In this document: positions 46,173-50,620 of the stretch, piece after piece
How the letters are laid out: every line of letters begins with the position of its first letter
How positions within the stretch are numbered: position 1 is the stretch's first letter
Source of the DNA: Alphaproteobacteria bacterium
GTDB taxonomy: Bacteria > Pseudomonadota > Alphaproteobacteria > Caulobacterales > Maricaulaceae
Assembly (NCBI GenBank): GCA_024742735.1
Contig: JANSXV010000004.1
Span: 62,001 to 126,000 of the forward strand
Length of the DNA stretch: 64,000 nucleotides
Reading direction: 5' to 3'
Made by a program: the position numbers and the translations under genes
Notes under the pieces: generated by a model
What the model was told of the DNA's origin: nothing
Seen by the model: the letters and a program-made list of their open reading frames with translations, nothing else
Databases searched by the model: none

Positions 46173-47105
46173 CTAAAGCCCGCCCAGCATGAAGGCGCCG
46201 ACCAGCAACAGCCCCGCCGTGCGGTTCGCCTTGAAGCGCTTCAGGCAATCGGCGCCGTCCTCCGGATCGAAGCCGCCCGCCTGCCAGACCAGATGCGCGG
46301 CGAACAGCGCAAAGCCCAGCGCGAACATCAGACCGGCTCCTGCGAAGACGCCTGCGGCGCCAGCCAGCACCGCCGCCGCGGCGTAGGATATCGCCACGCC
46401 GGTGCGCACATGCGCCCCCAGAGCCCGGGCCGAGGACTTCACCCCGATCAGGGCGTCGTCTTCCTTGTCCTGGCAGGCGTAGATCGTGTCATAGCCGACG
46501 GTCCAGAACAGGCTGGCCACGTACAGAAGGACGATCTGAGGCGCGAAGGGCGTGCCCAGGGCCGTCGCCCCGGCGACCGGAACGCCCCAGTTGAACGTGA
46601 GGCCCAGCCAGGCCTGAGGCCACCAGGTAATCCGCTTCATGAAGGGATAGGCCGCCACCAGCAGCAGAGCCGCCAGCGCGGTCAGGATCGCCGGAACCGG
46701 CAGCTGCACCAGCACCGCCAGGCCGACCAGGCACTGCGCCGTGAGAAACACCCAGGCGGATTTCAGCCCCACCGTTCCCGCCGCCAGCGGCCGGTCGGCG
46801 GTGCGGGCGACCTGCGCGTCCAGATCGCGGTCGACGATGTCGTTATAGGTGCAGCCCGCCCCGCGCATGGCCACCGCGCCGACGGCGAACAGCAGGGCGT
46901 AATAGAGGTCGCCCCAGCCGAGCCCGGTCCCGACATTGGCCGCCGCCAGTGCGAACCAGCACGGCAGGGCCAGCAGCCAGAAGCCCACAGGCCGGTCATA
47001 GCGGGCCAGGCGCAGATAGGGCCGGATCGCACGCGGCGCCCTGTCCACCCAGGTGGTCGGGAGGGAATCGGCCACGCGCCGGTCGTCTGAATAGGGGTTC
47101 GCCAT
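46173..47105 (-). CDS. ubiA: 4-hydroxybenzoate polyprenyltransferase
   Basis: The 310-residue membrane enzyme attaches the polyprenyl tail to 4-hydroxybenzoate in ubiquinone biosynthesis. The two aspartate motifs are CTYNDIVDRDLDAQVART RPL-type (NDxxDxxxD) and YACQDKEDDALIGVKS. Eight helices are predicted. It is divergent from rsmE, with 79 bases between the starts. Confidence 0.94.
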   Translation of the reverse strand: MANPYSDDRRVADSLPTTWVDRAPRAIRPYLRLARYDRPVGFWLLALPCWFALAAANVGTGLGWGDLYYALLFAVGAVAMRGAGCTYNDIVDRDLDAQVARTADRPLAAGTVGLKSAWVFLTAQCLVGLAVLVQLPVPAILTALAALLLVAAYPFMKRITWWPQAWLGLTFNWGVPVAGATALGTPFAPQIVLLYVASLFWTVGYDTIYACQDKEDDALIGVKSSARALGAHVRTGVAISYAAAAVLAGAAGVFAGAGLMFALGFALFAAHLVWQAGGFDPEDGADCLKRFKANRTAGLLLVGAFMLGGL

Positions 47106-47184
47106 GCGCGAACAGATAGCGCGCCGCGCCGCTCGCGTGAACACGCCTTGGCGGCGCACCGCCCAGCCGTCTAGAACACCGCCC

Positions 47185-48660
47185 ATGACCGTTGAGCCGC
47201 GCCTCTATCTCGACATGGCCTTCCAGCCCGGCGCTGAACTGGCGCTGGACAAGGACGCCTCGCACTATCTGGTGACCGTGATGCGGCGAAAGGCCGGGGA
47301 CGGCGTGCGCGTGTTCAACGGCCGGGACGGGGAATGGCGCGCCGAAGTTGCTGAGGCCAACAAGCGCGGCGCGGTGCTGCGCTTGAGTGACCAGACCCGG
47401 CCCCAGCGCACCGCGCCGGACATGGCGCTCTACTTCGCCCCGGTGAAGAAGGCGCGCACCGACTTCATCGTGGAGAAAGCGACCGAGCTGGGCGTTTCCT
47501 CCATCACCCCGGTGATGACCGCGCGCACCATGGCCGAGCGCGTGCGCACCGACCGGCTGCAGGCCATCGTGCGCGAAGCGTCCGAGCAGACCGAGCGCCT
47601 GGACCTGCCGGCGGTGAACGAACCCATCGCCCTGACCCAGCTTCTGAAATCCTGGGATACCGAGCGCCGCCTGATCTTCGCCGACGAAGCCGGAGAGGAC
47701 GAGGACGCGCCCTGGGGCGGTGAAAGCGGGCGGGCCAGGCCGATCGCTGAGGCGCTGGCGGCCTTCGCGCACCCCACCCCGCGTTCCGCCCTCGGATCAA
47801 TCCACCGGATTGATCCTCTGGGCTTCACCCCCTCAAGGGGAGGGAGTGAGGCGGCGCACGCTTTCGACATCACCGGCTACGACGAGGCCCGCTTCACCGT
47901 CTCCAAAGACGGCCGATATGTAGAAGACCGCGCCGCCGCTCCTCCCTCCCCCTCGGGGGAGGGCCGGGGTGGGGGGCGGCCGACGCCGAATGCGCGGGCG
48001 CTCGCCCAGGCCAAACGCATGCGCGGCGAACCCACAGAAGCGGAGCGCCGCCTCTGGTCCATCCTGAAGTCGTTGAAGGAACCCGGCTTCCACTTTCGCC
48101 GTCAGGCCGCCATCGGTCCTTACGTGGCGGACTTCGCCTGCCTGTCGAAGCGTCTGGTGGTGGAGGCCGATGGCGGCGGGCATGGCGGAATGCGCGATCT
48201 GGCGCGCGACGCCTGGCTGGAGACGAACGGGTATCGGGTCCTAAGGTTCTGGAACAACGAGATCGTGGAGAATCCTCAGGGGGTTGGAGAGGCGGTGCTC
48301 GCTGCGCTCGCCCACCCCACCCCGGCCCTCCCCTCGAGGGGAGGGGGAAGCACCGCCGCTCTGAACAAGTCCGGACACGACGCCGACCGTTCCACCGTCT
48401 CAATAGACGGCGAATATAGCGAAGATCACGCCGACGCTCCTCCCTACCCCTCGGGGGAGGGCCGGGGTGGGGGGCGAACGTACCAGAAATGGGCCCTTCT
48501 CATCGGCCCGGAAGGCGGGTTCGCGCCGGAGGAGCGCCAGCTTCTGCGCAGCCAGCCCTTCGTGGTTCCGGTCAGCCTCGGCCCGCGCATCCTGCGCGCG
48601 GACACCGCCGTCGCCGCCGCCCTGTCGGTGTGGCAGGCGATGCTGGGTGACTGGGGCTGA
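47185..48660 (+). CDS. rsmE: RsmE 16S rRNA m3U1498 methyltransferase with in-frame DUF559 nuclease insertion
   Basis: The gene is 491 codons; RsmE is normally about 240-250. The N-terminal 194 residues are ordinary (PUA domain, then the first part of the SPOUT domain, VKKARTDFIVEKATELGV and REASEQTERLDLPAV), ending at EALAAF. The C-terminal 58 residues resume with KWALLIGPEGGFAPEE and end with SLGPRILRADTAVAAAL, the SAM-binding knot. Between them about 237 codons (47767-48477) encode two repeat-derived peptides and a DUF559 domain (about 48010-48312). The reading frame is intact throughout and no stop codon occurs. The insertion falls in the loop just before the knot. Whether the fusion folds, is processed, or is inactive is unknown. 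Confidence 0.88.
   Translation: MTVEPRLYLDMAFQPGAELALDKDASHYLVTVMRRKAGDGVRVFNGRDGEWRAEVAEANKRGAVLRLSDQTRPQRTAPDMALYFAPVKKARTDFIVEKATELGVSSITPVMTARTMAERVRTDRLQAIVREASEQTERLDLPAVNEPIALTQLLKSWDTERRLIFADEAGEDEDAPWGGESGRARPIAEALAAFAHPTPRSALGSIHRIDPLGFTPSRGGSEAAHAFDITGYDEARFTVSKDGRYVEDRAAAPPSPSGEGRGGGRPTPNARALAQAKRMRGEPTEAERRLWSILKSLKEPGFHFRRQAAIGPYVADFACLSKRLVVEADGGGHGGMRDLARDAWLETNGYRVLRFWNNEIVENPQGVGEAVLAALAHPTPALPSRGGGSTAALNKSGHDADRSTVSIDGEYSEDHADAPPYPSGEGRGGGRTYQKWALLIGPEGGFAPEERQLLRSQPFVVPVSLGPRILRADTAVAAALSVWQAMLGDWG
47772..47974. repeat. Left palindromic unit of the rsmE element, with nested hairpin
   Basis: Ends are CCCCACCCC (47772-47780) and GGGGAGGGCCGGGGTGGGG (47956-47974). It contains a perfect 10-bp hairpin GGATCAATCC / GGATTGATCC (47794-47803 and 47807-47816) inside about 45 extra bases compared with the right unit, and an inner hairpin around CCGTCT..AGACGG near 47900. 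Confidence 0.75.
48315..48472. repeat. Right palindromic unit of the rsmE element (158 bp)
   Basis: Perfect 19-bp terminal inverted repeats CCCCACCCCGGCCCTCCCC (48315-48333) and GGGGAGGGCCGGGGTGGGG (48454-48472). A 20-bp palindrome lies at 48326-48345 and an inner CCGTCT..AGACGG hairpin near 48396. Its length, 158 bases, equals that of the element at 5371-5528, whose ends are related in sequence. Confidence 0.8.
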
Positions 48661-48759
48661 CGTCTCACGGCCTTGTGAAGCGTAGAAAGCCTGTCTGCTT
48701 GCCGCAGCCCCTCGCCTCCCCTAACTGTGCGGCGGATTGAATGAACAGGGACGTCACTG

Positions 48760-50133
48760 ATGAGCGGGACATACAATCAGGGCGGCGAAGGCCCGCGCAT
48801 CGAGACCAAGGCCCAGCTGATCGGCCATCTGGCCTCCGGCGAGAAGCCGGCCGACAAATTCCGCATCGGCACCGAGCACGAGAAGTTCGGCTTCACCAAA
48901 GACGGTCACAACCCCCTGCCCTATGACGGCGACGGGCCCACCGTGCGCAAGATGCTGGAAGGCCTGACCCGGTTCGGCTGGGAGCCGATCGAGGAGAACG
49001 GCCAGCCCGTGGCGCTGAAACGCCAGGGCGGGTCCATCACGCTGGAGCCCGGCGGCCAGTTCGAGCTGTCCGGCGCGCCGCTGGAGGATCTGCACCAGAC
49101 CTGCCGGGAGGTGAACGGACATCTGCGCGAGGTGCGCGAGGTCGCCGACGAGATCGGTGCGGGCTTCCTGGGGCTTGGCTTCTCGCCGAAATGGTCCCTG
49201 GAAGAGACGCCCCTCATGCCCAAGGACCGCTACCAGATCATGAAGGCCTACATGCCGAAAGTCGGCGGTCTGGGCCATCAGATGATGTTCCGCTCCTGCA
49301 CCGTGCAGACCAATCTGGATTTCAGCTCCGAAGCCGACATGGTCAGGAAGATGCGCGTCTCCCTGGCGCTGCAGCCGGTGGCCACGGCCCTGTTCGCCAA
49401 CTCCCCCTTCAAGGATGGCGGGCTGCACGGATACCTGTCCTACCGCGCCCATGTGTGGACCGATGTGGACCAGGACCGCACCGGCGACCTGCCCTTCGTG
49501 TTCGAGGAGGGCTATGGCTATGAGCAATACGTGGACTGGGCCCTCGATGCGCCCATGTATTTCGTCAAGCGCGAGGGGCGCTTCATCGACGCCTCCGGCC
49601 AGAGCTTCCGCGACTTTCTGGAAGGCAAGCTGCCCGCCCTGCCCGGCGAAATCCCGGCGATGAGCGATTGGGAGGACCACCTCTCCACCCTCTTCCCCGA
49701 AGTGCGCCTGAAAACCTTCATCGAACAGCGCGGCGCCGACGGCGGCCCGTGGAACCGCCTGTGCGCTCTGCCCGCCCTGTGGGTCGGCCTGCTCTATGAC
49801 GAAGACGCGCTCAACGCGGCCTGGGACTACGTCAAGGACTGGACCGCCGCCGAGCGCGCCCAGCTACGCCGCGACGCCGCCAAACACGCCCTGAAAACCC
49901 CGTTCCGCGACCGCACGCTGCAGGACGTCGCCAAGGACATCCTCGCGCTCGCCCGCGGCGGCCTGAAACGCCGCGCCCGCCTCAACGCCCACGGCGAACA
50001 CGAAGCCCTGTTCCTGGATGATCTTGATGAGATCGCGAAGACGGGGATTTCAGCGGCGGAGCGGCTGATCGAGCGGTATAAGGGTGCGTGGGGCGAGAGC
50101 GTGGAGCCGGTGTTTGTCGAGGCGGCTTATTAG
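48760..50133 (+). CDS. gshA: Glutamate-cysteine ligase, plant/alphaproteobacterial type
   Basis: The 457-residue enzyme makes gamma-glutamylcysteine, the first step of glutathione synthesis. FRIGTEHEKFGF, LEPGGQFELSGAPL, MMFRSCTVQTNLDFSSEADM and LFANSPFKDG are typical of the family shared by plants and Alphaproteobacteria and distinct from E. coli GshA. The start at 48760 gives a normal N-terminus. It follows rsmE by 99 bases, a common alphaproteobacterial adjacency. Confidence 0.95.
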   Translation: MSGTYNQGGEGPRIETKAQLIGHLASGEKPADKFRIGTEHEKFGFTKDGHNPLPYDGDGPTVRKMLEGLTRFGWEPIEENGQPVALKRQGGSITLEPGGQFELSGAPLEDLHQTCREVNGHLREVREVADEIGAGFLGLGFSPKWSLEETPLMPKDRYQIMKAYMPKVGGLGHQMMFRSCTVQTNLDFSSEADMVRKMRVSLALQPVATALFANSPFKDGGLHGYLSYRAHVWTDVDQDRTGDLPFVFEEGYGYEQYVDWALDAPMYFVKREGRFIDASGQSFRDFLEGKLPALPGEIPAMSDWEDHLSTLFPEVRLKTFIEQRGADGGPWNRLCALPALWVGLLYDEDALNAAWDYVKDWTAAERAQLRRDAAKHALKTPFRDRTLQDVAKDILALARGGLKRRARLNAHGEHEALFLDDLDEIAKTGISAAERLIERYKGAWGESVEPVFVEAAY

Positions 50134-50261: not shown

Positions 50262-50567
50262 TCAATAGGTCGCCGGCCCGCAGATTTCTTCATAGAGGTC
50301 ACGCCAGTCGGGGTTCTCTTTCTCGACCAGCGCAATTTTCCATTCACGCCGCCAGCGCTTCATCCGGCGCTCCTGGGCCGCAGCTTCGGTGACGTCCTCG
50401 CAGGGCGCGAGCCACACGAGGCGATGGCAGTTGTACTTCCAAACAAAGCCGCGCGTGGCGCCGGTGCGATGCTCCCACATGCGCCGGCAGAAATTCTCAT
50501 TCGTCATGCCGAGATAGAGCACGCCTCGAGGTTTGTTCGTGAGGATGTAAAGGTAGGCGCGTGCCAT
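50262..50567 (-). CDS. GIY-YIG nuclease domain protein
   Basis: The 101-residue protein starts at ATG 50567, after GGGAGAA. It is a minimal GIY-YIG domain: AYLYILTN and GVLYLGMTNE form the two-strand motif, RRMWEHR supplies the arginine, and the ERRMKRWRREWKIALVE helix the glutamate. This small type (ending in NPDWRDLYEEI) is abundant in multiple copies in Alphaproteobacteria, and its function is not established. It stands between two REPIN-like repeats, 10 bases before one and 53 bases after the other, with no other gene in the interval. Confidence 0.9.
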   Translation of the reverse strand: MARAYLYILTNKPRGVLYLGMTNENFCRRMWEHRTGATRGFVWKYNCHRLVWLAPCEDVTEAAAQERRMKRWRREWKIALVEKENPDWRDLYEEICGPATY

Positions 50568-50620
50568 GAATTCTCCCGAAAGGAGAATGTGGGATGACGC
50601 TTCTCGTAGCAAGTCCTGAG

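Follow-up and report, generated by a model that had tools for sequence, protein, structure and literature searches.

A DUF559 nuclease bracketed by REPIN-like repeats and read in frame within rsmE, and DUF559 as a candidate mobiliser of palindromic repeats in Alphaproteobacteria

The window, that is, the whole stretch of 64,000 nt analysed here, carries an rsmE gene whose frame is lengthened by a DUF559 nuclease region and two REPIN-like repeats (Table 1). The encoded protein matches NCBIfam NF008696, 16S rRNA (uracil1498-N3)-methyltransferase, with 325.6 bits against a cut-off of 234, and it has the PUA and SPOUT domains and the conserved GPEGG and LGPRILRADTA motifs of RsmE. In Pfam, PUA_4 matches residues 21-67, Methyltrans_RNA matches in two stretches, the better of which is 79-172, and DUF559 (PF04480) matches residues 273-375 (E 4.3e-32 for the whole protein). 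A sequence-only reading had proposed a single open frame of 491 codons in which a DUF559 domain was inserted in the loop before the SAM-binding knot, with both RsmE halves conserved. These proposals are borne out, and LLIGPEGGF and the C-terminal half are both present. One RsmE copy was found in this genome, and its two search matches are the two halves of the same gene.

Table 1. Features of the interrupted rsmE gene (positions in the window)
Feature	Positions	Strand	Residues	Basis or remark
rsmE	47185..48660	+		491 codons, single open frame with insert; ORF, Pfam and NCBIfam evidence
RsmE N-terminal half (PUA and first part of SPOUT domain)	47185..47766	+	1-194	
In-frame insert, 711 nt	47767..48477	+	195-431	absent from nine genomes of the genus
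REPIN-like repeat copy 1	47767..47979	+	195-265	repeat comparison
DUF559 nuclease region	47980..48309	+	266-375	Pfam, conserved residues, Foldseek
REPIN-like repeat copy 2	48310..48477	+	376-431	repeat comparison, genome matches
RsmE C-terminal half and stop codon	48478..48660	+		GPEGGF at 48505-48522

The junctions were located by comparison with relatives that lack the insert, as the sequence-only reading had advised. An uninterrupted RsmE, 243-260 aa long, occurs in nine genomes of the genus, and the insert is therefore put at about 237 codons. The N-terminal half ends with EALAAF at 47766 and the C-terminal half starts with TYQKWALLIGPEGGF at 48478, with 237 extra residues between them, the exact edges being a choice within a few codons. 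An assembly join had been named as an alternative, and this was rejected because nuclease and repeat lie in the same loop in G006, G095 and G011, which were assembled separately. An intron or intein was also rejected: an Rfam search of 46900-48900 gave no match at E ≤ 1, so no group I or II intron match, and no intein (Hint) domain was among the Pfam matches of the 491-codon protein. A known defence gene was likewise rejected, as PADLOC gave no match at E ≤ 0.01 for either nuclease, DUF559 or GIY-YIG.

The nuclease region has the conserved D, E-x-D-G-x-x-H and R residues of DUF559, and D316, E327, D329 and H333 are retained in all four fused copies. DUF559 and MTES_1575 were the only Pfam families matched in the insert, with no HUH tyrosine transposase domain matched there. 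In an AF2 model of the fused protein (mean pLDDT 74) the RsmE parts are confident, with block means of 83-97 for residues 1-170 and 53-80 for residues 171-200. Most DUF559 blocks lie at 78-89, with block 331-340, which includes the conserved H333, low at 53. The linker blocks have means of 31-54, and the repeat-encoded linkers look disordered in the model. With the whole model as query, Foldseek returned RsmE 4j3c (E 6.8e-20), DUF559 3hrl (E 4.3e-6) and the homing endonuclease I-Bth0305I 3r3p (E 1.5e-4, target TM 0.71). The last match agrees with the earlier placement of DUF559 in a fold group that includes the EDxHD homing endonucleases.

Selection was gauged from dN/dS by the Nei-Gojobori method (own script) in pairs of fused rsmE genes. 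The most reliable ratio is that of G006/G011, which is 0.12 for DUF559 and 0.12 for the RsmE N-terminal half. For G000/G095, G000/G006 and G095/G006, respectively, the ratios are 0.09, 0.17 and 0.15 for DUF559, 0.37, 0.52 and 0.36 for the RsmE N-terminal half, and 0.65, 0.49 and 0.68 for the second repeat, the synonymous divergence of DUF559 in these three pairs being 1.5-1.7, which is near saturation and higher than the 0.64-0.70 of the RsmE N-terminal half. The ratios indicate that the nuclease domain is under purifying selection while fused and that the repeat-encoded linkers evolve more loosely.

These results bear on the options that had been offered for the expression of the gene. Removal of the insert from the RNA, as an intron, or from the protein, by proteolysis of the linkers, would restore a normal RsmE, and linkers predicted to be disordered would allow such proteolysis. 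However, the Rfam and Pfam searches described above speak against an intron or intein, the frame is intact in G000, G095 and G006, and there is coding constraint on DUF559 in the rsmE frame. Removal is therefore very unlikely. A tolerated loop insertion fits best among the options, and RNA-level removal has no support.

The palindromic DNA that had been noticed on both sides of the nuclease is real and consists of two copies of one repeat, which lie in direct orientation and are 80% identical over 120 nt. A 26-base repeat end occurs twice in the window, compared with 0.00 times by chance in 100 shuffles. When copy 2 was searched against the 3.23 Mb genome, at least 80 matches were obtained, which were grouped by hand into the two rsmE copies and 26 places elsewhere (of 63 first-look candidates, 40 were scored). 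Among 20 places looked at, 17 have one inverted pair of ends in the orientation of the window, 95-158 nt long, two have one pair in the opposite orientation (82-83 nt), and one has two pairs. Thus, the repeat has the form of a REPIN, namely two inverted palindromic ends close together, in many copies in the genome. No GTAG or CGTC tag was found beside the hairpin, and by eye the ends read CACCCCACCCCGGCCCTCCCC / GGGGAGGGCCGGGGTGGGG. The folding energy of three single repeat arms is no better than that of shuffles (z -0.7 to 0.5), so the REPIN assignment rests on repetition and bracketing rather than on folding. The left arm of copy 1 also contains a nested 23-nt palindrome at about 47794-47816, and the stretch that includes it (47766-47850) is the sole one to stand out in DNA folding (z -4.0). 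The palindromes are therefore a dispersed, REPIN-like family, which goes beyond the earlier reading. The only other DUF559 gene of the genome is likewise bracketed by related palindromes.

The repeats are read in frame in a second housekeeping gene. One REPIN of this genome is in the frame of glyS, whose product matches Pfam tRNA_synt_2f (E 1.6e-119). When GlyS was aligned over 12 genomes, two loops were found that contain a REPIN or another repeat-like stretch in some species but are short in others, and such loops occur in several species of the genus (L010:1503-1654, genome C13; L331, L335, L336); the repeat-like stretches other than this REPIN were assigned to repeat families by eye. As with the palindromic elements of Rickettsia, a palindromic repeat is thus read in frame in several housekeeping genes, here rsmE and glyS.

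Presence and absence in relatives, a comparison that had also been recommended, revealed empty, filled, repeat-only and scarred rsmE alleles. RsmE was recovered from 14 of the 15 genomes of the genus, and nine of the 14 are empty. G014 (319 aa) and G008 (344 aa) have repeats only in the rsmE loop. In G008 the inner end of the first repeat runs straight into the last part of the DUF559 region; this looks like a deletion of the nuclease that kept the frame and left a scar. Nuclease and repeat are found in the same loop in three other genomes, in two of them in one open frame. G006, whose coordinates and sequence identify it with MAG RI_41 (L089), has an RsmE of 460 aa in which the first repeat is reduced to a remnant. 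G095, from another genus, has nuclease and repeats in one frame of 529 codons, and in G011 the nuclease is in frame with the N-terminal half and is followed by a run of N that hides whether the frame is whole. In the family as a whole an rsmE match was obtained in 127 of 137 genomes, and G096 has a repeat-like remnant in the loop. The REPIN family of the window is present in all five insert-bearing members of the genus, with 12 to 76 matches each, and among the nine empty genomes five have zero matches and four have 1 to 21.

Purifying selection on the fused domain could also mean that RsmE has recruited DUF559 as a functional component, for instance for a nuclease activity linked to RNA or the ribosome. 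The accessible text of one study describes other alphaproteobacterial SPOUT methyltransferases with fused DUF559 or GIY-YIG domains (PMC1829167). However, most genomes of the genus (9/14) are empty, the domain has been lost in close relatives, once by the apparent in-frame deletion in G008, and the repeat-encoded linker is under looser constraint. Recruitment therefore seems improbable.

A further explanation is that DUF559 is a homing endonuclease specific for rsmE, which cuts empty alleles and is copied into them as an intein-less homing gene. The distribution has some features of homing: the same loop is filled in two genera, the spread is patchy and needs four state changes among the hosts on the RsmE tree (29 rows), and the four rsmE-borne DUF559 domains form a single clade among 44 rows (support 100/98). 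However, the DUF559 domains have diverged about as much as the RsmE proteins that host them, with pairwise identities (RsmE/DUF559) of 72/74, 65/68, 65/64, 72/67, 72/65 and 92/94%, and so a recent spread from one species to another is not indicated. Moreover, the same loop holds a nuclease-free REPIN in G014 or a remnant in G096, and glyS holds repeats too. Recent homing into rsmE was accordingly set aside as unsupported, and rsmE-specific homing in general is judged to be quite unlikely. One old insertion with several losses would fit the divergence better than recent transfer.

The association of DUF559 with palindromes extends well beyond rsmE: elsewhere in the class, too, DUF559 genes often have such repeats on both sides. 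Flanks of 500 nt on the left and right match each other with at least 35 bits at 22 of 40 DUF559 loci of the family, which were picked by hand, one per genome, out of 49 genomes with matches, compared with 1 of 583 positions of the same geometry in the same loci. This bracket is absent at the remaining 18 of the 40. By the same measure, flank matches occur at 18/29 DUF559, 16/30 GIY-YIG and 0/28 RidA loci and at 15/27 loci of a class-wide DUF559 sample. These samples are best-scoring matches rather than random ones, the 29 DUF559 loci overlap the 40 family loci (L165-L194 and L195-L234), and RidA was the only other gene family that served as a control. Incomplete loci were left out (1/30 DUF559, 2/30 RidA, 3/30 class DUF559 and, below, 1/20 new GIY-YIG). 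GC-rich hairpins, with a stem of at least 8 bp within 150 nt and scored independently of repeat matching, flank 35 of 70 DUF559 genes on both sides, a count in which the three incomplete class loci were kept, compared with 0.4% of 815 positions.

The palindromes near DUF559 belong to a recognizable type that contains a run of C. At least one such C-run palindrome lies within 300 nt of 27/29 and 26/27 DUF559 genes in the family and class samples, and 18/29 and 13/27 of these loci have them on both sides. They are near 0/30 GIY-YIG and 0/28 RidA genes at this distance. The rules for C-run and CGTC palindromes were written after these earlier loci and fixed before 40 further loci were fetched. 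C-run palindromes then bracketed 16 of the 20 new DUF559 loci, which had been picked by hand without view of the flanks, 13 of them from genomes in which another DUF559 locus had already been seen, and with the palindromes of G147, G172 and G182 already known before the choice. Among the new loci from genomes not sampled before, 5/7 are bracketed. The other four of the 20 have no C-run palindrome on either side. By comparison, both-sided C-run palindromes occur at 0/19 new GIY-YIG loci (1/19 has one on one side) and at 0/700 control positions, which were drawn from family loci L195-L234 and not from class loci; any-sided C-run palindromes occur at 15/700 and any-sided CGTC palindromes at 8/700 of these positions.

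In addition, the nuclease and the repeats co-occur across genomes. In a class-wide set of 193 genomes, 33 of the 47 with a DUF559 match at E < 1e-10 (taken as strong) have at least four perfect C-run palindromes, as do 5 of the other 146, among which 15 genomes whose matches are all weaker (E 1e-10 to 1e-3) were counted; Fisher's test gives 6.5e-21 with relatedness uncorrected. In 19 families with both states, palindromes are more numerous on the DUF559 side in 17, fewer in one and equal in one, although neither this within-family sign test nor Fisher's test removes all relatedness. A control pattern read backward scored 0 in 179/193 genomes, with a maximum of 7. Exceptions exist on both sides, namely 14/47 strong-DUF559 genomes with fewer than four palindromes and 5/146 others with at least four. 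Within the genus, G009 has 8 REPIN matches but no DUF559 match. For a large part of the sampled loci and genomes, DUF559 nevertheless resembles a RAYT in that the enzyme gene is flanked by, and co-occurs with, its REPs. Since the nuclease is accompanied by such repeats in related bacteria, it is a candidate for the enzyme that spreads them.

The same association could arise if DUF559 were a passenger or a homing-type parasite for which multicopy REPs are safe places to land, with the REPs being moved by a RAYT in trans or by recombination. The fold match to a homing endonuclease (3r3p) is compatible with a parasite. So are direct duplications around DUF559 of 60 nt at 100% identity in L212 and 85 nt at 99% in L215, each of which holds one REP and adjoining sequence, as if the gene and one REP had entered a resident REP; they hint at insertion with target duplication. 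However, at least four C-run palindromes are found in only 5/146 genomes without a strong DUF559 match. DUF559 and GIY-YIG adjoin different REP classes, and whole REPIN copies, not two halves of one, flank the gene in the window. A passenger or parasite therefore appears unlikely, with a chance of perhaps one in four.

The second REP class concerns the GIY-YIG nucleases. CGTC-type hairpins are near 11/30 GIY-YIG genes, compared with 1/29 and 0/27 DUF559 and 0/28 RidA genes, and among the new loci CGTC palindromes lie on any side of 8/19 GIY-YIG and 0/20 DUF559 genes. The weaker evidence for this pairing thus suggests that a link of GIY-YIG with CGTC-type REPs is present, in fewer than half of the genes. 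The window itself has a standalone GIY-YIG gene at 50262-50612 on the minus strand (PF01541, E 9.6e-10). A different palindromic repeat lies on both sides of it (the flanks match with 49 bits; core CCCGGCCAAGCGC) and fails the strict CGTC rule.

The closest parallel among known systems is that of REPINs and RAYTs (REPtrons), where, in the accessible text of the sources, multicopy inverted palindrome pairs occur together with the gene of a small enzyme, which has these repeats on its flanks (PMC3116915, PMC3733652). In contrast, the enzyme here is a Vsr/EDxHD-type DUF559 and not a HUH tyrosine transposase, the ends of the window's repeat lack a GTAG tag by eye, and a housekeeping gene contains the whole unit within its frame. 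Rickettsia palindromic elements (RPE) and intragenic GTAG and CGTC REPs are described, in the portions available, as lying in frame in housekeeping genes and encoding extra peptide (PMC10969869, PMC3733652). The insert in rsmE differs from them in its repeat class, in its hosts, which are relatives of Oceanicaulis, and in carrying a nuclease gene. The fused SPOUT methyltransferases bll5746 and an E. litoralis protein also join DUF559 or GIY-YIG to an RNA methyltransferase in Alphaproteobacteria, but as far as the accessible text goes those fusions are terminal and belong to another SPOUT group, whereas the rsmE case is internal with repeats on both sides (PMC1829167). Hence, DUF559 fused in SPOUT enzymes and in-frame palindromes are, according to the same portions of these sources, already in print (PMC1829167; PMC10969869, PMC3733652). 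The homing endonuclease I-Bth0305I shares the fold of the catalytic domain (3r3p), but the rsmE insert is bracketed by multicopy repeats, with no intron or intein found and no sign of recent homing. Finally, Caulobacter VsrA (CCNA_02930) has a Vsr-like DUF559 domain and is, in the accessible text, proposed as a mismatch-repair nuclease; this would be another role for DUF559 and speaks against the mobiliser reading (PMC12907096).

From the observed anatomy, the intact frame, the alleles of relatives, the selection and the bracketing in the class samples, we infer mobilisation. It seems moderately probable that rsmE holds a mobile REPIN-DUF559-REPIN unit, in an old insertion expressed as a single fused protein, and that DUF559 is what spreads C-run REPs, together with its own gene, in the manner of REPs and RAYTs. 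The Vsr/EDxHD-type nuclease would cut at or near REP hairpins, and host repair would finish the copying. The action of DUF559 on C-run REPs would parallel that proposed for RAYTs on GTAG REPs, and cleavage of REP single strands by RAYT is reported in the available part of PMC3733652. A unit may have landed in a permissive surface loop of rsmE with the frame kept, giving a single protein in which the nuclease would hang on two disordered, repeat-encoded linkers and RsmE would still fold and work. The insertion is probably old and may have been lost repeatedly, once leaving the in-frame scar. The dispersal of the repeats, the bracketing of DUF559 and the nuclease-free repeats in the rsmE loop and in glyS therefore make a REP with its own nuclease the close analogue, rather than a homing endonuclease that chose rsmE.

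CGTC REPs, which occur mostly in alpha-Proteobacteria, appear to lack a dedicated transposase, according to the part of PMC3733652 that is accessible. The pairing of nuclease family with REP class offers two concrete candidate enzymes for the spread of REPs that have no RAYT. With slightly less than an even chance, DUF559 and standalone GIY-YIG nucleases may be the missing REP mobilisers of Alphaproteobacteria, for C-run and CGTC-type REPs respectively, with bare repeats and the nuclease unit passing in frame through RsmE and GlyS. Literature searches on REPs, palindromes, DUF559, Vsr and homing endonucleases found no link of DUF559 or GIY-YIG to REPs in titles among the matches listed, subscription journals being thinly covered. 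In the rsmE case itself, a knotted methyltransferase has taken up 237 residues that include a nuclease domain under constraint, and relatives show the allele empty, filled and scarred.

Several other DUF559 loci have suggestive neighbourhoods. In L220, L226 and L228, from G003 (Oceanicaulis HTCC2633), G001 and G013 (Oceanicaulis MMSF_3324), a DUF559 gene is found some 1.7-2.1 kb past rsmE, close to the place that the GIY-YIG gene occupies in the window; the gene between rsmE and DUF559 is presumably glutamate-cysteine-ligase-like. (The names rest on contig coordinates, as does that of G004, Oceanicaulis BBD 1991-10.) In L214, L215 and L216, from three genomes in two genera, DUF559 lies beside the same-looking gene, which we take to be gatB, and this may be a recurrent landing site. 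In the class sample, G145 has 10 DUF559 matches and 77 C-run palindromes, and three of its near-full-domain DUF559 matches are part of open frames 390-748 codons long, possibly further cases of in-frame fusion.
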